Origin: Butyrivibrio sp. NC3005
Lineage (GTDB): Bacteria; Bacillota; Clostridia; Lachnospirales; Lachnospiraceae
DNA: 64,000 nucleotides
Reading direction: 5' to 3'
Assembly (NCBI RefSeq): GCF_000424545.1
Contig: NZ_AUKC01000004.1
Location: 62,001 to 126,000, forward strand
The notes beneath the pieces were generated by a model, which worked only from the letters and a program-made list of their open reading frames with translations, was not told the DNA's origin and ran no database searches. This document shows positions 22,176 through 27,905 of this stretch, piece by piece (position 1 is the first letter of the stretch; every line of letters begins with the position of its first letter). A program made the translations under genes and the position numbers.

Positions 22176-24623
22176 TCATTTATCGTTTATTTTTGTTTGT
22201 TCAAGCAAGTGATTTTCCTCATCAAAAATCTTCACATATCCATCCAACGTATCAGCCTTTTTCCTTAAAGCATTTGAATGTCCCCATACAAAAATCTCTG
22301 CTCTACCTTTACCATTTTTGGCTTCCTGAATCATATTGGCACCAGAGAGATTACCATCAAAAGCAATTACCACAGACGGTCTTCTCTCAAAGATTTCATA
22401 GTTAAAACTCTTATATATTCCTGAACTTTCGACTTCAGTCGACACACGAATAGAAACATTAGACTTAATTAGATTATTTTTCTCCTGTAAGGTAATAAGC
22501 GCCGGAACAATAGAGAAACACTTAAATCTATCTGCATACTTATCAACAAGATATTTCTCATACCCGGTAAATCTGTTACCTATTACAAAAAATACCTCTT
22601 CAGGATCTAGCGTTTCTACGAAATCATCAAGTTCTTTTATAGCTTCCTGCATTAATCTTGTAGTTCGTTTCTCTGAATTAAAAGAACCACCCATTATAAT
22701 GATTGGAAGCTTATCCCAAGGAAGCTGTTCAATTTTATTACCAAGTTCGACGCATACATCGTATTTGCGAGCACTTTGAATTTTTAAATGGATATCTTTT
22801 CGATATTTTTCCATCATCTCGATAAAAAAAGCTTCCATTCCCTTATTCTTCGTAAGTTCTAAAAAACGTTCCTTTTTCATCGAATATGCTTTTTTACTCT
22901 CTTCGATAATCTCTGTCTCTGTATCCTTCATCTGCTGCAACTCTTCAACAGATAAATCGAGCATTTTCTGCAAAGAAAGCTGTTCATCAATAGAACTTGT
23001 GCCATATAAAGCGGCGCCATCAGTACCTTGAACACACTTTACGCCCATCATCAAATAATCTTTCAAAGGATGATTATCAAGATTGCTGAGATTATTAAGC
23101 CGAACATTTGAACTTATCTGGAATTCAAGTACAATATTATTTTTCACTATCTCATTGAAAATACGCTTACCTTTTTGCGTTTTCAGTCCATATGTATATA
23201 AACCATGACCAAGACGCATCTTAGGCATCTTCTGACCGGGTTCAAGACTATCTTTTACGCACATAATACTGTGATAAATATTATCTTTCTGGCTATCATT
23301 TTCACCTGCATGTACTCTTATAACAAATGAAGGATCTCTTGCTGCTATCTTTACAATCTCTTTAAAAACAGGCTTCAAAGTGATTATATCGTTAATCTCT
23401 TCACCTACAAAATCGCAGCCTGCAACATACGGATCATAAGAAACTGCATTTAATACCTGCAGATTCTGCATAAGATAATCCTCTGGTGTCACTTCATCTT
23501 TGATTATAGTAAGAGGAATTCTTCGAAGTGCAGCCAAAAATCTTATCATAACACCAGTTTCTTCATAAATTTTGGGCATAATCTCATGAATCTGACAAAG
23601 CTGCTTACTTGATTCATATTTTTTCACCAAAGTCGTATCACTTATTTCAGCATAATGTACACCCTGCTTCTTGTAACCCCTGGCAATCCATAATAAATCA
23701 TCCTGAAAAATGGTATTATTACAATAATAGGGATTTTCTCTATCTTTAAGCATTTGATAAAGGGCATTCTTTACATCTTTATCGGGAATCTGCTCAATGT
23801 TGTGAAAATTGATTTTTTCTTCGCTCTCTTTTCCCTTGGTAAAAACATATCTGTACAAATAAACCTTTTCAAGATTTGTAAAAACAGCCTGACCATCCTT
23901 CAAAACACATAGAGATCCCCGGATTTTCACTATATTCTCTTCTGCATGATTAATATTTCCCAGTATCAAATCCGCAAAATTCACAAACGTATTATCGTCA
24001 ATTTTCCTGTCTAGGTACTTTCCTTTCAAATCAGACGAAATAAACTGCCTCTCAACCTTCTCTCTTTTCTTCTGAACTTTTTCCCACTGAGACATTGTCA
24101 TATCGAGATCTAGTTTTTTAACATAATAAAGAGGATATTTAATCTGATGATAAATACCAAGTGCAATCAAAACATCCGGCGAAATATTGCCATTCATATG
24201 TGTATGAAGATCTGCTCTGAATTTTACCTTTCTTGGAACAAAAGTATTAAAAATAGTCTTGGACAGTCCTAGCTTGTAATCTCTTGTCTGACTCATAAGA
24301 GTCTTGGCGATAGACGGAATAGAAGCACATACCTTCACACTTCCGTCTGGATAAATATCTGCCACTTTTACATCTTTTAAGCTAAAAATATACACTTCTT
24401 CATTATTACCATTTATAAAGCATGGTACCTCGCCTCTTATCACGAGCATGTCATCATCATTTAATTCAAGCGGTAAATCACACATCTTAGCCAGATTTCT
24501 AATGAGATTTCCCGAATGATGATTAGGCGTTTCAAGTTCGTAATACATTCTGTCCAAATCTTTGTAAAGACTGACAATTATGTCTTTTTCATTATCTAGA
24601 AAAAAGAAGGTAAAATAGGTCAT
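22176..24623 (-). CDS. Large adenosine-deaminase-like hydrolase with C-terminal SLOG-like domain
   Basis: This 815-residue protein carries the full adenosine-deaminase motif series: LHTHMNG (His140, His142), GCDFVGEE near 402, HAGE at 438-441, LGHG at 471-474, ISSN near 503-506 and GTDGA at 533-537. All zinc ligands and the catalytic Glu are kept; the second Asp of the usual TDDP motif is Gly. About 130 N-terminal residues precede the barrel, and there is a long insertion between the first motif and motif two. Residues 640-800 form a Rossmann-like fold (IIIMGGSFNS, then VVIAFDGNLSGANMI) resembling SLOG nucleotide-binding domains. The ATG overlaps the yolD-like stop by four bases. Substrate unknown; a modified or signalling nucleotide is an inference. 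Confidence 0.75.
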   Translation of the reverse strand: MTYFTFFFLDNEKDIIVSLYKDLDRMYYELETPNHHSGNLIRNLAKMCDLPLELNDDDMLVIRGEVPCFINGNNEEVYIFSLKDVKVADIYPDGSVKVCASIPSIAKTLMSQTRDYKLGLSKTIFNTFVPRKVKFRADLHTHMNGNISPDVLIALGIYHQIKYPLYYVKKLDLDMTMSQWEKVQKKREKVERQFISSDLKGKYLDRKIDDNTFVNFADLILGNINHAEENIVKIRGSLCVLKDGQAVFTNLEKVYLYRYVFTKGKESEEKINFHNIEQIPDKDVKNALYQMLKDRENPYYCNNTIFQDDLLWIARGYKKQGVHYAEISDTTLVKKYESSKQLCQIHEIMPKIYEETGVMIRFLAALRRIPLTIIKDEVTPEDYLMQNLQVLNAVSYDPYVAGCDFVGEEINDIITLKPVFKEIVKIAARDPSFVIRVHAGENDSQKDNIYHSIMCVKDSLEPGQKMPKMRLGHGLYTYGLKTQKGKRIFNEIVKNNIVLEFQISSNVRLNNLSNLDNHPLKDYLMMGVKCVQGTDGAALYGTSSIDEQLSLQKMLDLSVEELQQMKDTETEIIEESKKAYSMKKERFLELTKNKGMEAFFIEMMEKYRKDIHLKIQSARKYDVCVELGNKIEQLPWDKLPIIIMGGSFNSEKRTTRLMQEAIKELDDFVETLDPEEVFFVIGNRFTGYEKYLVDKYADRFKCFSIVPALITLQEKNNLIKSNVSIRVSTEVESSGIYKSFNYEIFERRPSVVIAFDGNLSGANMIQEAKNGKGRAEIFVWGHSNALRKKADTLDGYVKIFDEENHLLEQTKINDK

Positions 24624-25111
24624 CTAACACTCTCCCTGCACATAACATCAACTATGCTGTTAATAGGAATCAAATCACCTGATTCCATATAAATCATTTG
24701 GTTATACACATCAATTTTACTAACAAAACCTTCTTTCGTCACGTATTTTCCGCCTTCTTTTCTTCTATCTTTGACGAAAAAAGTAAACTCTGCAAAAGTC
24801 TTAACGTCTGTATCTTTATTTTGAGTTAAAGCCTTGCACAATTTTTGCAATTCATAGTCTATTTCTTCTTTTCTATTATCAGATAGAATAGGTTCCCTGC
24901 TGGTAAAACGAGCCTTTTCGTATATTTCATCTTCAAATCCTGTAAGAGCTGCAAATGGAGCAAACATCGCTGCGCGAAGTGATATAGGCGCATGAGCATG
25001 CTTTCTTACGCCATTCCACTCGACGTCTAGTATATCTCCATATTTCCTCATAGTTTCAGCATCACTTCTGTACTTTATATCGGATGTTTTATCTCTCTCA
25101 TACATACGCAC
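24620..25111 (-). CDS. YolD-like protein
   Basis: This 163-residue protein matches the YolD-like family: the core FAPFAALTGFED, a LSDNRKEEIDYELQKL helix and a C-terminal beta domain ending LIPINSIVDV. YolD-like proteins accompany UV-inducible Y-family polymerases in Firmicutes. The gene starts three bases after the polymerase stop codon and overlaps the deaminase-like gene by four bases, so the three form one translational unit. Biochemical function is not established. Confidence 0.85.
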   Translation of the reverse strand: MRMYERDKTSDIKYRSDAETMRKYGDILDVEWNGVRKHAHAPISLRAAMFAPFAALTGFEDEIYEKARFTSREPILSDNRKEEIDYELQKLCKALTQNKDTDVKTFAEFTFFVKDRRKEGGKYVTKEGFVSKIDVYNQMIYMESGDLIPINSIVDVMCRESVR

Positions 25112-25114
25112 CTC

Positions 25115-26632
25115 CTATGCCTTATGCCCGCCAATCTGAGCATTTCTAAGTATTGTGGTAGCTCCATCTAATAAATCTGTGCCTTTAAAAATAGCATTTT
25201 TACCATACTTTTTCTTTATTACAAGAACTGCTTTCTGCATATCCTGTTCTTTCTTTAGTGCAAGTTTTTCCTTTTCTCTCTTTTCTTCCTCTTGCGCAAC
25301 ATTTGTAAAAAGAGTAAGCTGTTCAAAATGTTCTTTATTACTTTTAGCCTTTCTTTCATCTTCTAACTCTGATGCCGCAATATTTATTCGTCTTATAAGT
25401 AAAATAGGATTAACTATCCTCTCATAGAGTTCCAGCACCTTATCTGCTATTGTTCTGATAGAGGAAGTTGGCTTTTCTAAATTGACACACCCTGTAGAAT
25501 GCTTTGGAACAAGCCTTCCATAAGGATCCATCTTAATTTCTCCTTTGTATTTTTGCCTTATTTCCGGATTTCCAAGGTTTTCGTGATCGTATCCTATTGT
25601 AAGAACTATATGGCTTGTCACAAGATTTTTGTCAATAAGATCAAGAATAAGCTGTTCTGTCATTTCCCGTATTATAATTCTAGCCTTTATGACATCATAA
25701 GGCATAGATAGAACCTGCCCCGTGCTGATACTCTCTGACCTTGGCCTATAGTTCTTAATGTCTGCAATAGTAGAATTTTCATATCCAAAAGCGTGATCTA
25801 TCAGATACTCAGCATTTACACCAAATAGTTTGAACAAAAAATCCTCATTGATAAGAGCCATTTTTGCTACATCGCCCATAGTGTACATTCCATTTGCTTC
25901 AAGCTTTTTTGCTATTCCTCTTCCAACCCTCCAGAAATCTGTAAGCGGTCTGTGATTCCACATCTTCTCTCTGTAACTTATAACATCAAGTTCTGCAATT
26001 CTTACACCATTTTTATCTGCAGGAATATGCTTGGCCACCACATCCATCGCCACCTTACACAAAAACAGATTAGGCGCAATTCCAGCAGTTGCTGTAATTC
26101 CGGTTTCTTTGAATACCTCTCCTATTAGCTTCTTCGTGAAATCAAATGCATTAAGACCATAAGTATTAAGATATCCCGTTGCATCTATAAAAACCTCATC
26201 TATTGAATAAACATGAATATCCTCCGGTGCAACATACCTTAAATAAATACTGTATATTTTCGCACTAATTTCTTCATATCTCTTCATCCTGGGCGGTGCT
26301 ACTATATAATCAAGTTCTAGCGAATTATCCTGTAAAAGCTCAGCTTCAAAGAAAGATTTGCCAGTAAAAACGTGATTTTTAGCTGCAATTTTCCTTGCCT
26401 TATTAATGTTATTAACCATGGCTTCCACCTCGAAAAGCCTTGCACGACCAGGAATCTTATATTTCTTCAAAGAAGGTGAAACCGCAAGACATATTGTCTT
26501 GTTAGTCCTTTCGCCGTCCGCAACAACCAGATTCACAGAAAGAGGATCATAACCTCTATCCTTACATTCAACTGATGCATAGAAAGATTTCAAATCTATT
26601 GCAATATATGTTCTTTGAGCTTTCTTTTCCAT
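25115..26632 (-). CDS. Y-family DNA polymerase (DinB/UvrX type)
   Basis: This 505-residue translesion polymerase starts AIDLKSFYASVEC (first catalytic Asp) and has the second acidic pair in YSIDEVFIDATGYL near residue 145. Helix-hairpin-helix-type thumb segments follow (VGRGIAKKLEANGMYTMGDVA) and then a little-finger domain. The sequence is nearer the UmuC/UvrX branch with a YolD partner than housekeeping DinB. It copies past DNA damage with low fidelity. Start ATG at 26632 has GATGAGAG upstream. The -10 box of its likely promoter lies between two identical octamers. Confidence 0.9.
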   Translation of the reverse strand: MEKKAQRTYIAIDLKSFYASVECKDRGYDPLSVNLVVADGERTNKTICLAVSPSLKKYKIPGRARLFEVEAMVNNINKARKIAAKNHVFTGKSFFEAELLQDNSLELDYIVAPPRMKRYEEISAKIYSIYLRYVAPEDIHVYSIDEVFIDATGYLNTYGLNAFDFTKKLIGEVFKETGITATAGIAPNLFLCKVAMDVVAKHIPADKNGVRIAELDVISYREKMWNHRPLTDFWRVGRGIAKKLEANGMYTMGDVAKMALINEDFLFKLFGVNAEYLIDHAFGYENSTIADIKNYRPRSESISTGQVLSMPYDVIKARIIIREMTEQLILDLIDKNLVTSHIVLTIGYDHENLGNPEIRQKYKGEIKMDPYGRLVPKHSTGCVNLEKPTSSIRTIADKVLELYERIVNPILLIRRINIAASELEDERKAKSNKEHFEQLTLFTNVAQEEEKREKEKLALKKEQDMQKAVLVIKKKYGKNAIFKGTDLLDGATTILRNAQIGGHKA

Positions 26633-26669
26633 ATTTTTCTCTCATCAATTATTATAGTTTTTACATTCT

Positions 26670-26698
26670 TTCTGCTAAAATTATACTCTATTCTGCTA
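26670..26698 (-). promoter_or_regulatory. Direct repeats flanking a -10 box before the polymerase operon
   Basis: TTCTGCTA (plus-strand reading) occurs at 26670-26677 and again at 26691-26698, 21 bases apart, so both face the same side of the helix. Between them lies a perfect TATAAT on the minus strand (26680-26685). The -35 position is very poor (TACCAT), which suggests a regulated promoter. No standard LexA box is visible. Confidence 0.5.
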
Positions 26699-26816
26699 GA
26701 AAATGGTACTCTTTTTTCTTGTTTTTGGCATATTTCATGCTATTTTTATCAATCAAGTAGTTTCTTTCTGTTTGAATTCCTTCGCATCCGCCATTGTATA
26801 TCCAAAAAATATCAAA

Positions 26817-26899
26817 AAAGGTGCGAAGATTTTGTACCGTCTTCAAAAGTCAGATGTAAAATCTAACGCTTGTAAAATTAGTACAATCTTCGCACCTTT
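26817..26899 (-). terminator. Long-stem terminator or structured element
   Basis: AAAGGTGCGAAGAT and ATCTTCGCACCTTT pair perfectly over 14 bases, and GTAC/GTAC pairs continue inside past a two-base bulge. The 43-base loop contains an AGAT/ATCT hairpin. On the minus strand a T6 run follows, so it terminates the lipoprotein transcript about 100 bases past its stop. The big structured loop is unusual for a plain terminator. Confidence 0.65.
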
Positions 26900-26994: not shown

Positions 26995-27813
26995 TCAGTT
27001 GTCTCTATTAACCTCTACGCCTTCCATTGAAATATCAATTGGATTACCTCCAGCACCATATCCTGATCTGTAGTACGTAAGACCCTTGCCCCTTGTCCAT
27101 TCCATTCTGCAGTACCATCCGGTCTCTACAGCTGTATCCCAACATCTATATCTGCAGATATCATTATCATGTTCTATTCTAAGCTCATAAGTATCCTTAG
27201 TTTTTTGTTCATCATCCTTTGAACAAACACTAATTCCATTTTTCAAAAAATCATCTTCAGTCGGAACTTTATCTGTTAAATCCTGCAGGTAATAAATTTC
27301 CTCATCTGTTACATAGAAAAGACCAAGTTTAAATCTGTCAGAACCATCCACATCTTTACTTCCAGGGCATTCATCATGGATAATCGTGATAGAATAGACC
27401 ATTCCTTTAGTATATTCTGCTCTTTTACTAACCTTGACCTTTACTTTAACATTATCAGTATCTTCTAACATAAGTTCTTTAACGTCATAGGAATACTCTC
27501 CTTCGTCACTAAAAAAATAGTCTTTTGCACTGAAAACAGAATTCTGCTCGGATTTTTTTTCGCCATCGTTGTTAACATCTTCCCTAGAACTATCTGCAAT
27601 GCCACTTTCACTAGCGTTTTTCAAGGTGTCATCTTCAGAGGCACTACTTCTGCCAGATTTTACCAAATCATCACTTTCTCCAGAACTTTCCAGCGTAGCA
27701 CTTTCGCTAGACTTTTCAGAAGGAAGAGTTGTATCTCCAATAAAACACCCTGACAACAGAGTACTCATGGAAAACAGCATTGATGTTACAATTACTACTT
27801 TTTTAATCTTCAT
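26995..27813 (-). CDS. Ser/Glu-rich lipoprotein
   Basis: This 272-residue protein begins MKIKKVVIVTSMLFSMST and has the lipobox LLSGC. A low-complexity Ser/Glu/Asp linker of about 70 residues follows, then a folded domain with paired Cys (VCSKDDEQ..., RYRCWDTAVETGWYCRMEW). The start at 27813 is chosen because GGGAG precedes it and because it begins the signal peptide; the frame is open 15 codons further. The function of the folded domain is not recognised. It is probably exposed on the cell surface. Confidence 0.75.
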   Translation of the reverse strand: MKIKKVVIVTSMLFSMSTLLSGCFIGDTTLPSEKSSESATLESSGESDDLVKSGRSSASEDDTLKNASESGIADSSREDVNNDGEKKSEQNSVFSAKDYFFSDEGEYSYDVKELMLEDTDNVKVKVKVSKRAEYTKGMVYSITIIHDECPGSKDVDGSDRFKLGLFYVTDEEIYYLQDLTDKVPTEDDFLKNGISVCSKDDEQKTKDTYELRIEHDNDICRYRCWDTAVETGWYCRMEWTRGKGLTYYRSGYGAGGNPIDISMEGVEVNRDN

Positions 27814-27905
27814 TTCTTTTTCTCCCTGTAACTTTTGTATTATTTCCAAAACAGTCAAATTTCAGGAAATAACACCAATAACACTTTTTTCATACAAAAC
27901 AACAG

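Follow-up and report, generated by a model that had tools for sequence, protein, structure and literature searches.

A family of adenosine-deaminase-like proteins with a SLOG-like C-terminal domain in Lachnospirales and its occasional linkage to a Y-family DNA polymerase

Proteins that combine a sensor with an adenosine deaminase (ADA) are known as CRISPR effectors (Cad1). The CARF domain is the sensing part of Cad1, as the SLOG domain is in ThsA (PMC11645235; this and the other papers are cited for their accessible parts). The SIR2-SLOG architecture of ThsA is a precedent for a SLOG sensor carried on an enzyme, and its SLOG domain senses cyclic ADP-ribose-type ligands (PMC11204291, PMC12948488). 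RADAR, in the accessible part of its description, pairs an ADA with a separate ATPase. The present work concerns three genes in a window of 64,000 nucleotides, the whole stretch of DNA analyzed, from the 3.87 Mb genome of Butyrivibrio sp. NC3005, a bacterium of the gut or rumen type (contig NZ_AUKC01000004.1, positions 62,001 to 126,000). On the minus strand, from 26632 to 22176, the list of open reading frames (ORFs) of the window contained in a row a polymerase gene, a yolD-like gene, and a gene for a protein with a predicted deaminase and a SLOG-like domain (deaminase-SLOG). An earlier model-made reading of this DNA (the sequence-only reading) had proposed that the three form one coupled unit, and the coordinates that it gave were verified. 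The partnership with the polymerase is occasional, and the protein family itself is the interesting part.

The deaminase-SLOG gene (22176..24623, minus strand) encodes 815 aa, and its product matched PF00962 with an E value of 6e-16. The AlphaFold model, for which an alignment of 39 family members was used as input, reached a mean predicted local distance difference test score (pLDDT) of 86.7 and a predicted template modelling score (pTM) of 0.84. Three parts were delimited by inspection, all on the minus strand. Residues ~1-129 (24237..24623) form a beta-rich N-terminal domain according to the secondary structure of the model. Residues ~130-597 (22833..24236) form an ADA barrel, recognized from the model, the PDB match and the conservation among 121 homologues, with a large insertion that by inspection falls into its N-terminal half. 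Residues 608-815 (22179..22802) form a SLOG-like Rossmann fold, which had a pLDDT of 93.3 when modelled alone. In a Foldseek comparison of the whole model with the PDB, adenosine deaminases led (6n9m, E 3e-9). Further matches included ADAL/MAPDA (N6-methyl-AMP deaminases), ADA2 and AMP deaminase, as well as Cad1 (8z3p at rank 26, E 1e-6; also 8z3k and 9of1).

For the C-terminal domain alone, TRPM channels led the fold search (9mt8, E 7e-4). The region matched is presumably the N-terminal MHR region, judging from general knowledge and from the content of entry 8e6v, which is restricted to MHR1/2 and NUDT9H and matched with E 0.085 and a probability of 0.98. Matches were also obtained to DprA of Helicobacter (4ljk, E 0.013, TM 0.53/0.50) and to a molybdenum-cofactor (MoCo)-binding protein (6y01, E 0.05, TM 0.55/0.66); we take TRPM, DprA and the MoCo-binding protein to be members of the SLOG superfamily. 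None of the Pfam models fitted the C-terminal domain, the window protein giving two chance matches below the cut-off, and a sequence search of the PDB with the SLOG-like domain returned nothing at E 10. Across the 39 aligned rows, 29 residues of this domain were invariant. LOG phosphoribohydrolases carry PGGxGTxxE; the LOG motif PGGxGT was found in 0/39 C-terminal rows and 0/121 proteins. The predicted structure supports a TIM-barrel deaminase to which a SLOG-like fold is joined on the C-terminal side. The 815-residue adenosine-deaminase-like protein of the sequence-only reading was thus confirmed by the Pfam match, the model and the ADA fold match, and its SLOG-like tail was backed by the fold matches of the predicted structure, though by no Pfam model.

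Conservation and gene neighbourhood were assessed in 121 loci, distinct by the last 600 residues of the protein and taken from 249 deaminase ORFs longer than 700 aa and scoring above 600 bits, with shorter fragments dropped. These loci were mostly the best matches of the searches, Butyrivibrio and Pseudobutyrivibrio being over-represented and some loci being near neighbours; three distant loci of the class stand outside the 121. The metal-binding and catalytic residues H140, H142, H438, E441, H473 and D535 were invariant in 121/121 homologues, and the signatures HTHxN, HAGE, GHG and TDG were present in the three distant class members.

Two positions of substrate recognition differed from canonical ADA. 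The position of Asp19 in mouse ADA corresponds to N144 here, with Asn in 120 and Ser in one of the 121 homologues, and the position of Asp/Asn296 corresponds to G536, with Gly in all 121. This correspondence was taken from a HMMER alignment to 6n9m (LDGN vs MNGN and TDDPA vs TDGAA, 27 bits). In TaqCad1, the same positions are Gly264 and Asn549, and the enzyme converts ATP without ordinary adenosine deamination (PMC12669630).

The ordinary ADA of the NC3005 genome (321 aa) carries HLHLDG and TDN. A second small ADA-like protein (312 aa) was also found, the family search of the genome giving three matches. Because the 321-aa ADA already fills the housekeeping role in adenosine deamination, the large protein probably has a different one; that its substrate might be phosphorylated is a guess.

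The family was detected in 58 of 79 genomes of the genus, in 38 of 392 sampled genomes of the order, and in 23 of 397 sampled genomes of the taxonomic family (19 of 334 genera). The phylum sample gave two matches among 299 genomes, the own genome and one congener. When the SLOG-like domain alone was used in a class-wide search, it was found in 7 of 291 genomes, three of which belong to one genus outside the order. In all seven cases it lay inside a reading frame of 815-869 aa, so fusion appears to be the rule. Among named records, 565 stretches matching the protein were confirmed, and the results given for such records are those of the best 80 of the 565. No match was found in 50,697 phage records and none was confirmed in viral contigs, while the plasmid search gave one match with 23.7% identity over a third of the protein. 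The deaminase as phage or plasmid cargo was therefore not supported, and in this order, Lachnospirales, the family represents a function conserved on the chromosome. No description of the protein was met in the open-access literature searched, outside which many journals lie, including the accessible parts of PMC12948488, PMC7159879 and PMC4012209.

For the linkage to polymerase genes, the flanking ORFs of the 121 loci were screened with polymerase and YolD-like profiles; the flanks on both sides covered at least 1 kb in 114 loci and at least 3 kb in 101. A Y-family polymerase adjoined the deaminase gene in 11 of the 121 loci, the window being counted with its YolD-like gene in between, and three arrangements were distinguished. 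The order in the window is polymerase, YolD, deaminase. In Butyrivibrio sp. NC2002 (L162) it is deaminase, polymerase, YolD, with an overlap of 8 bases between the deaminase stop and the polymerase start. In the other nine loci the neighbouring polymerase gene is of the DinB type and convergent, and all nine share the pseudouridine synthase upstream, which identifies them as one inherited arrangement. In the remaining 110 loci the flanks examined contained no polymerase, and those of the three distant class members neither a polymerase nor a YolD-like match. Obligate linkage was thereby ruled out.

On a FastTree phylogeny of the 121 proteins, the polymerase label needed three changes, and starred branches forced three; such parsimony changes may include losses, and three could equal one gain and two losses. 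Separate linkage events are favoured because gene orders and polymerase types differ. Within two genes of the deaminase, 76 families occurred in at least two loci, and 15 of them, the polymerase included, needed three or more changes. Fourteen other families therefore recurred as often as the polymerase or more, among them an ABC protein (7 changes), an SpoU methylase (6) and MgtE (4), with names taken from the annotation of a few families or given by inspection. When only immediate neighbours were considered, the polymerase needed 2 changes and 6 of 44 families needed more. By simple arithmetic, with 2-3 Y-family genes among ~3,500 genes, fewer than one adjacency would be expected in 121 independent loci; the loci are not independent. 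The linkage recurs and is real but not exceptional, and gene order changes fast in this group. The recurrence that the sequence-only reading had proposed to look for was therefore found, in 11 loci and three arrangements, without setting the polymerase apart from the 14 other families.

Tight junctions were common around these genes: on either side of the 121 deaminase genes, 57 junctions with a same-strand neighbour measured at most 20 bases. Several other neighbours were also observed. An SpoU-type RNA methylase gene adjoined the deaminase-SLOG gene in nine loci and two orientations (L303, L146, L179, L184, L187, L191, L158, L040 and L301), needing 5 tree changes as an immediate neighbour. 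SbcC adjoined it in two lineages and orientations (L157, L160, L164 and L205; ORFs below 80 aa ignored). In six related loci (L149, L171, L180, L181, L198 and L216), the gene directly 5' of that for the deaminase encodes a YfbR-like 5'-deoxynucleotidase, named from one locus.

In the window itself, the stop of the yolD-like gene and the start of the deaminase gene overlap by 4 bases (ATGA, 24620-24623), exactly as claimed. The gap of 3 bases reported between the polymerase and yolD-like genes holds only with a GTG start at 25111. An AGGAGG lies just 5' of the ATG at 25105, so this start is the likelier one and the gap is more likely 9 bases. Translation of all three genes as one unit may be inferred from these junctions. 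A 178-aa ORF begins on the same strand 49 bases downstream of the deaminase gene, so that the transcript may extend past it.

The polymerase gene (25115..26632, minus strand) encodes a UvrX/YqjW-like Y-family DNA polymerase of 505 aa (PF00817, 6e-26; PF11799, IMS_C, 1e-10), which also matched a PHROG DNA polymerase at 5e-60. It shares with its relatives a conserved C-terminal tail of the IGGHKA type, and its motifs IDLKSFYASVE and YSIDEVFID are, by inspection, presumably the catalytic carboxylate motifs. The YolD-like accessory protein (24620..25105, minus strand) has 161 aa from the ATG at 25105, or 163 aa from the GTG at 25111. Its match to PF08863 was weak (E 0.006, 17 bits), below the cut-off of 27.5, and homology was found to proteins adjoining other polymerases of the UvrX/YqjW type (best E 8e-23). 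Of the polymerase-YolD pair named earlier, the polymerase was thus confirmed and the YolD assignment remained weak.

Y-family polymerases were present in 77 of 79 genomes of the genus, and among the matches listed the polymerase-YolD pair sits elsewhere than at the deaminase gene in other genomes. The polymerase region (25500-26620) matched nine unannotated faecal phage records with 60-80% identity (64-70% in the five listed), so this type of polymerase occurs on phages. YolD-like ORFs of 66-85 aa adjoined several polymerases (L053, L054, L068, L069 and L070); such short ORFs may fit the variant with the N-terminal arm only in the accessible part of PMC12926913.

The box GAACN4GTTC, with at most one mismatch, was absent from the 350 bases 5' of the window polymerase, and this box may not be the one used in the genus. 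Under the same threshold it was found 5' of 8 of 32 polymerase rows, a set in which the window is counted twice, two rows have only ~60 bases upstream, and the count stands without a shuffle control. Seven of the eight belonged to the shorter polymerase class (L072, L074, L075, L076, L078, L079 and L080), with the box near the gene start, and L054 was the only member of the 500-residue class with a box of this kind. Upstream of the deaminase genes, exact boxes were found in 0/121 regions, and boxes with at most one mismatch in 5, compared to 10.6 in base shuffles. SOS control of the window operon is unsupported.

A promoter-like site, TTAGCA-16-TATAAT, with 10/12 matches, lies before the polymerase at 26651..26678 on the minus strand; 22 sites of this strength were counted in the region, vs 23.1 in shuffles. 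Further upstream, a strong hairpin followed by a U run was located at 26811..26899 on the minus strand (hairpin 26817-26899, -37.1 kcal/mol, z -8.0). It separates the operon from the upstream 26995-27858 and probably terminates the upstream gene. It is present in a single copy in the genome, save for one 19-base match, and is absent from the list of a simple terminator scan limited to loops of 3-8. No known RNA family reached the gathering threshold between 21500 and 29000.

The reading that we tentatively favour, at somewhat less than an even chance, is that of a family of ligand-gated purine-nucleotide deaminases with a job of its own, co-expressed with a polymerase in some lineages only. 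The C-terminal SLOG-like domain would bind a small nucleotide or an NAD-derived ligand, and the ligand-bound domain would switch the central metal-dependent deaminase, whose substrate would be a phosphorylated purine, either ATP/dATP or a modified AMP, and not free adenosine. From the overlap with a Pol V-like polymerase-YolD operon in the window and in NC2002, we infer probable co-transcription and possibly some benefit of co-expression, without an obligatory machine. We consider this the most economical account: the deaminase fold with its complete metal and catalytic set, the two pocket substitutions, the ordinary ADA in the same genome, the SLOG-like fold constantly fused to the deaminase and the ThsA precedent speak for it. 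The predicted fold and domain order, the invariant residues, the substitutions, the distribution and the two overlapping operons are results of the analysis; sensing, gating and substrate class belong to the proposal. A more specific version, in which the SLOG-like domain would read an alarm of the NAD or ADP-ribose type and open the deaminase to convert (d)ATP to (d)ITP, with the Pol V-like polymerase released together in some lineages, is considered very doubtful.

Several observations weigh against ligand-gated deamination of a phosphorylated purine. The pairing of N144 with Asp19 is a weak local stretch of 2.3 bits anchored by HxH. The ordinary ADA of the same genome has Asn at position 296, so that only the Gly is unusual there. 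In TaqCad1, adenosine activity was still absent after both residues had been restored, and the authors considered Gly264 and Asn549 neither the sole nor the primary factors (PMC12669630, accessible part). The fold matches to SLOG proteins are modest, with one (9mt8) below E 0.001, a best E of 7e-4 and a TM of 0.53 over the query. Furthermore, no signal-making partner was recognized among the neighbours, of which few families were named and for which no dedicated search was made.

The main rival explanation is a housekeeping enzyme without regulation that serves salvage or pool cleaning by deaminating modified purine monophosphates, such as the N6-methyl-AMP released when nucleic acids turn over; its SLOG-like part would be a LOG-like hydrolase or structural. 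The chromosomal distribution fits it (58/79 genomes of the genus, no phage match, no confirmed viral match and one partial plasmid match of 23.7%), as do the N6-methyl-AMP deaminases among the PDB fold matches and neighbours such as the SpoU methylase, the pseudouridine synthase, a NUDIX protein and the YfbR-like 5'-deoxynucleotidase. These neighbours are, however, few among many families and partly clade-bound. The LOG motif PGGxGT is absent from all 39 rows and 121 proteins, and the deaminase-SLOG proteins have TDG where MAPDA-type enzymes have TDD. This explanation is judged rather unlikely. Another rival is a chance event: a polymerase-YolD pair, of a kind that is also carried by phages, would have landed beside an unrelated gene, with the overlap an accident of a dense genome. 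Other genomes of the genus carry the pair at other places, nine faecal phage records show 60-80% identity to the polymerase region, 57 junctions of 20 bases or less lie beside the 121 genes, and other families recur to a similar extent. Against this, the same kinds of gene form two separate tight operons that differ in gene order, and none of the three arrangements places anything other than the YolD-like gene between polymerase and deaminase. Pure chance appears improbable.

The sequence-only reading had suggested a damage- or infection-induced module, in which the deaminase would remove or alter a nucleotide during error-prone synthesis by the polymerase. What stood of this suggestion is the overlapping operon in the window and some recurrence, namely the second operon in the other order in NC2002 and the convergent DinB-type neighbour in nine more loci; SbcC adjoins the deaminase gene in two lineages as well. 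In contrast, the polymerase adjoins in 11/121 loci only, nine of which share one arrangement, and 14 other families of the 76 recur equally or more. No GAACN4GTTC box was found 5' of the window operon, the deaminase had no phage match, and Y-family polymerases occur in 77/79 genomes of the genus compared to 58/79 for the deaminase. The deaminase is conserved mostly without an adjoining polymerase, and the findings do not establish a dedicated module for damage or infection, which we regard as slightly more improbable still than the chance event.

If ligand-gated deamination by the deaminase-SLOG family proves true, a chromosomal family that is common in one genus and related bacteria and carries another candidate sensor would extend ligand-gated purine deamination beyond the recognized defence systems. 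If the coupling to the polymerase is regulatory, a change in the nucleotide pool would be tied to error-prone repair. The family offers concrete residues and strains for testing, and the merit of follow-up lies with the family itself.

Compared with canonical ADA (Add), the deaminase-SLOG protein shares the fold and the metal and catalytic residues (121/121; 6n9m, E 3e-9), but it has 815 aa vs ~330 aa, a large insertion in the barrel, and replacements at both substrate-recognition residues. Its score against the ADA equivalog model was 52 bits, the cut-off being 459. With RdrB of RADAR (model of 850 positions) it shares the large size and the ADA family. The 815-aa protein gave no NCBIfam match to RdrB at E 1 and no match to a PADLOC model of RADAR. 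The polymerase and yolD-like genes of the window resemble the putative UvrX/YqjW-YolD mutasome of Gram-positives (accessible part of PMC6511836), in which a tailed polymerase adjoins a small YolD-like protein. In contrast to that system, the window YolD is below the Pfam cut-off and a deaminase gene is added to the operon.

Cad1 (also CAAD; CARF-ADA, type III CRISPR, CARF5 clade) likewise joins a Rossmann-type ligand domain to an ADA barrel, and it departs from canonical ADA at the same two positions of substrate recognition. The second domain of the deaminase-SLOG protein is, however, SLOG-like and C-terminal, whereas that of Cad1 is CARF and N-terminal. The PADLOC model for Cad1 (CARF_ADA) matched the 815-aa protein at profile positions 337-565 of 605, which is the ADA part only, and a match to this model was obtained for 26 of 39 members. 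No N-terminal CARF domain was found in the 815-aa protein, whose first ~130 residues are beta-rich. Membership in Cad1 through PADLOC was ruled out, as the 312-aa ADA-like paralogue of the same genome (L311 398-1336) scored better (1.5e-15 vs 2.7e-9). The C-terminal Rossmann fold places the protein near the SLOG superfamily, with TRPM, DprA and MoCo-binding proteins in the lead at modest scores. As in ThsA (SIR2-SLOG, type I Thoeris), an enzyme domain is joined to a SLOG-type candidate sensor. The Pfam search gave no match to SIR2 in the 815-aa protein, which has a predicted deaminase where ThsA has an NADase.

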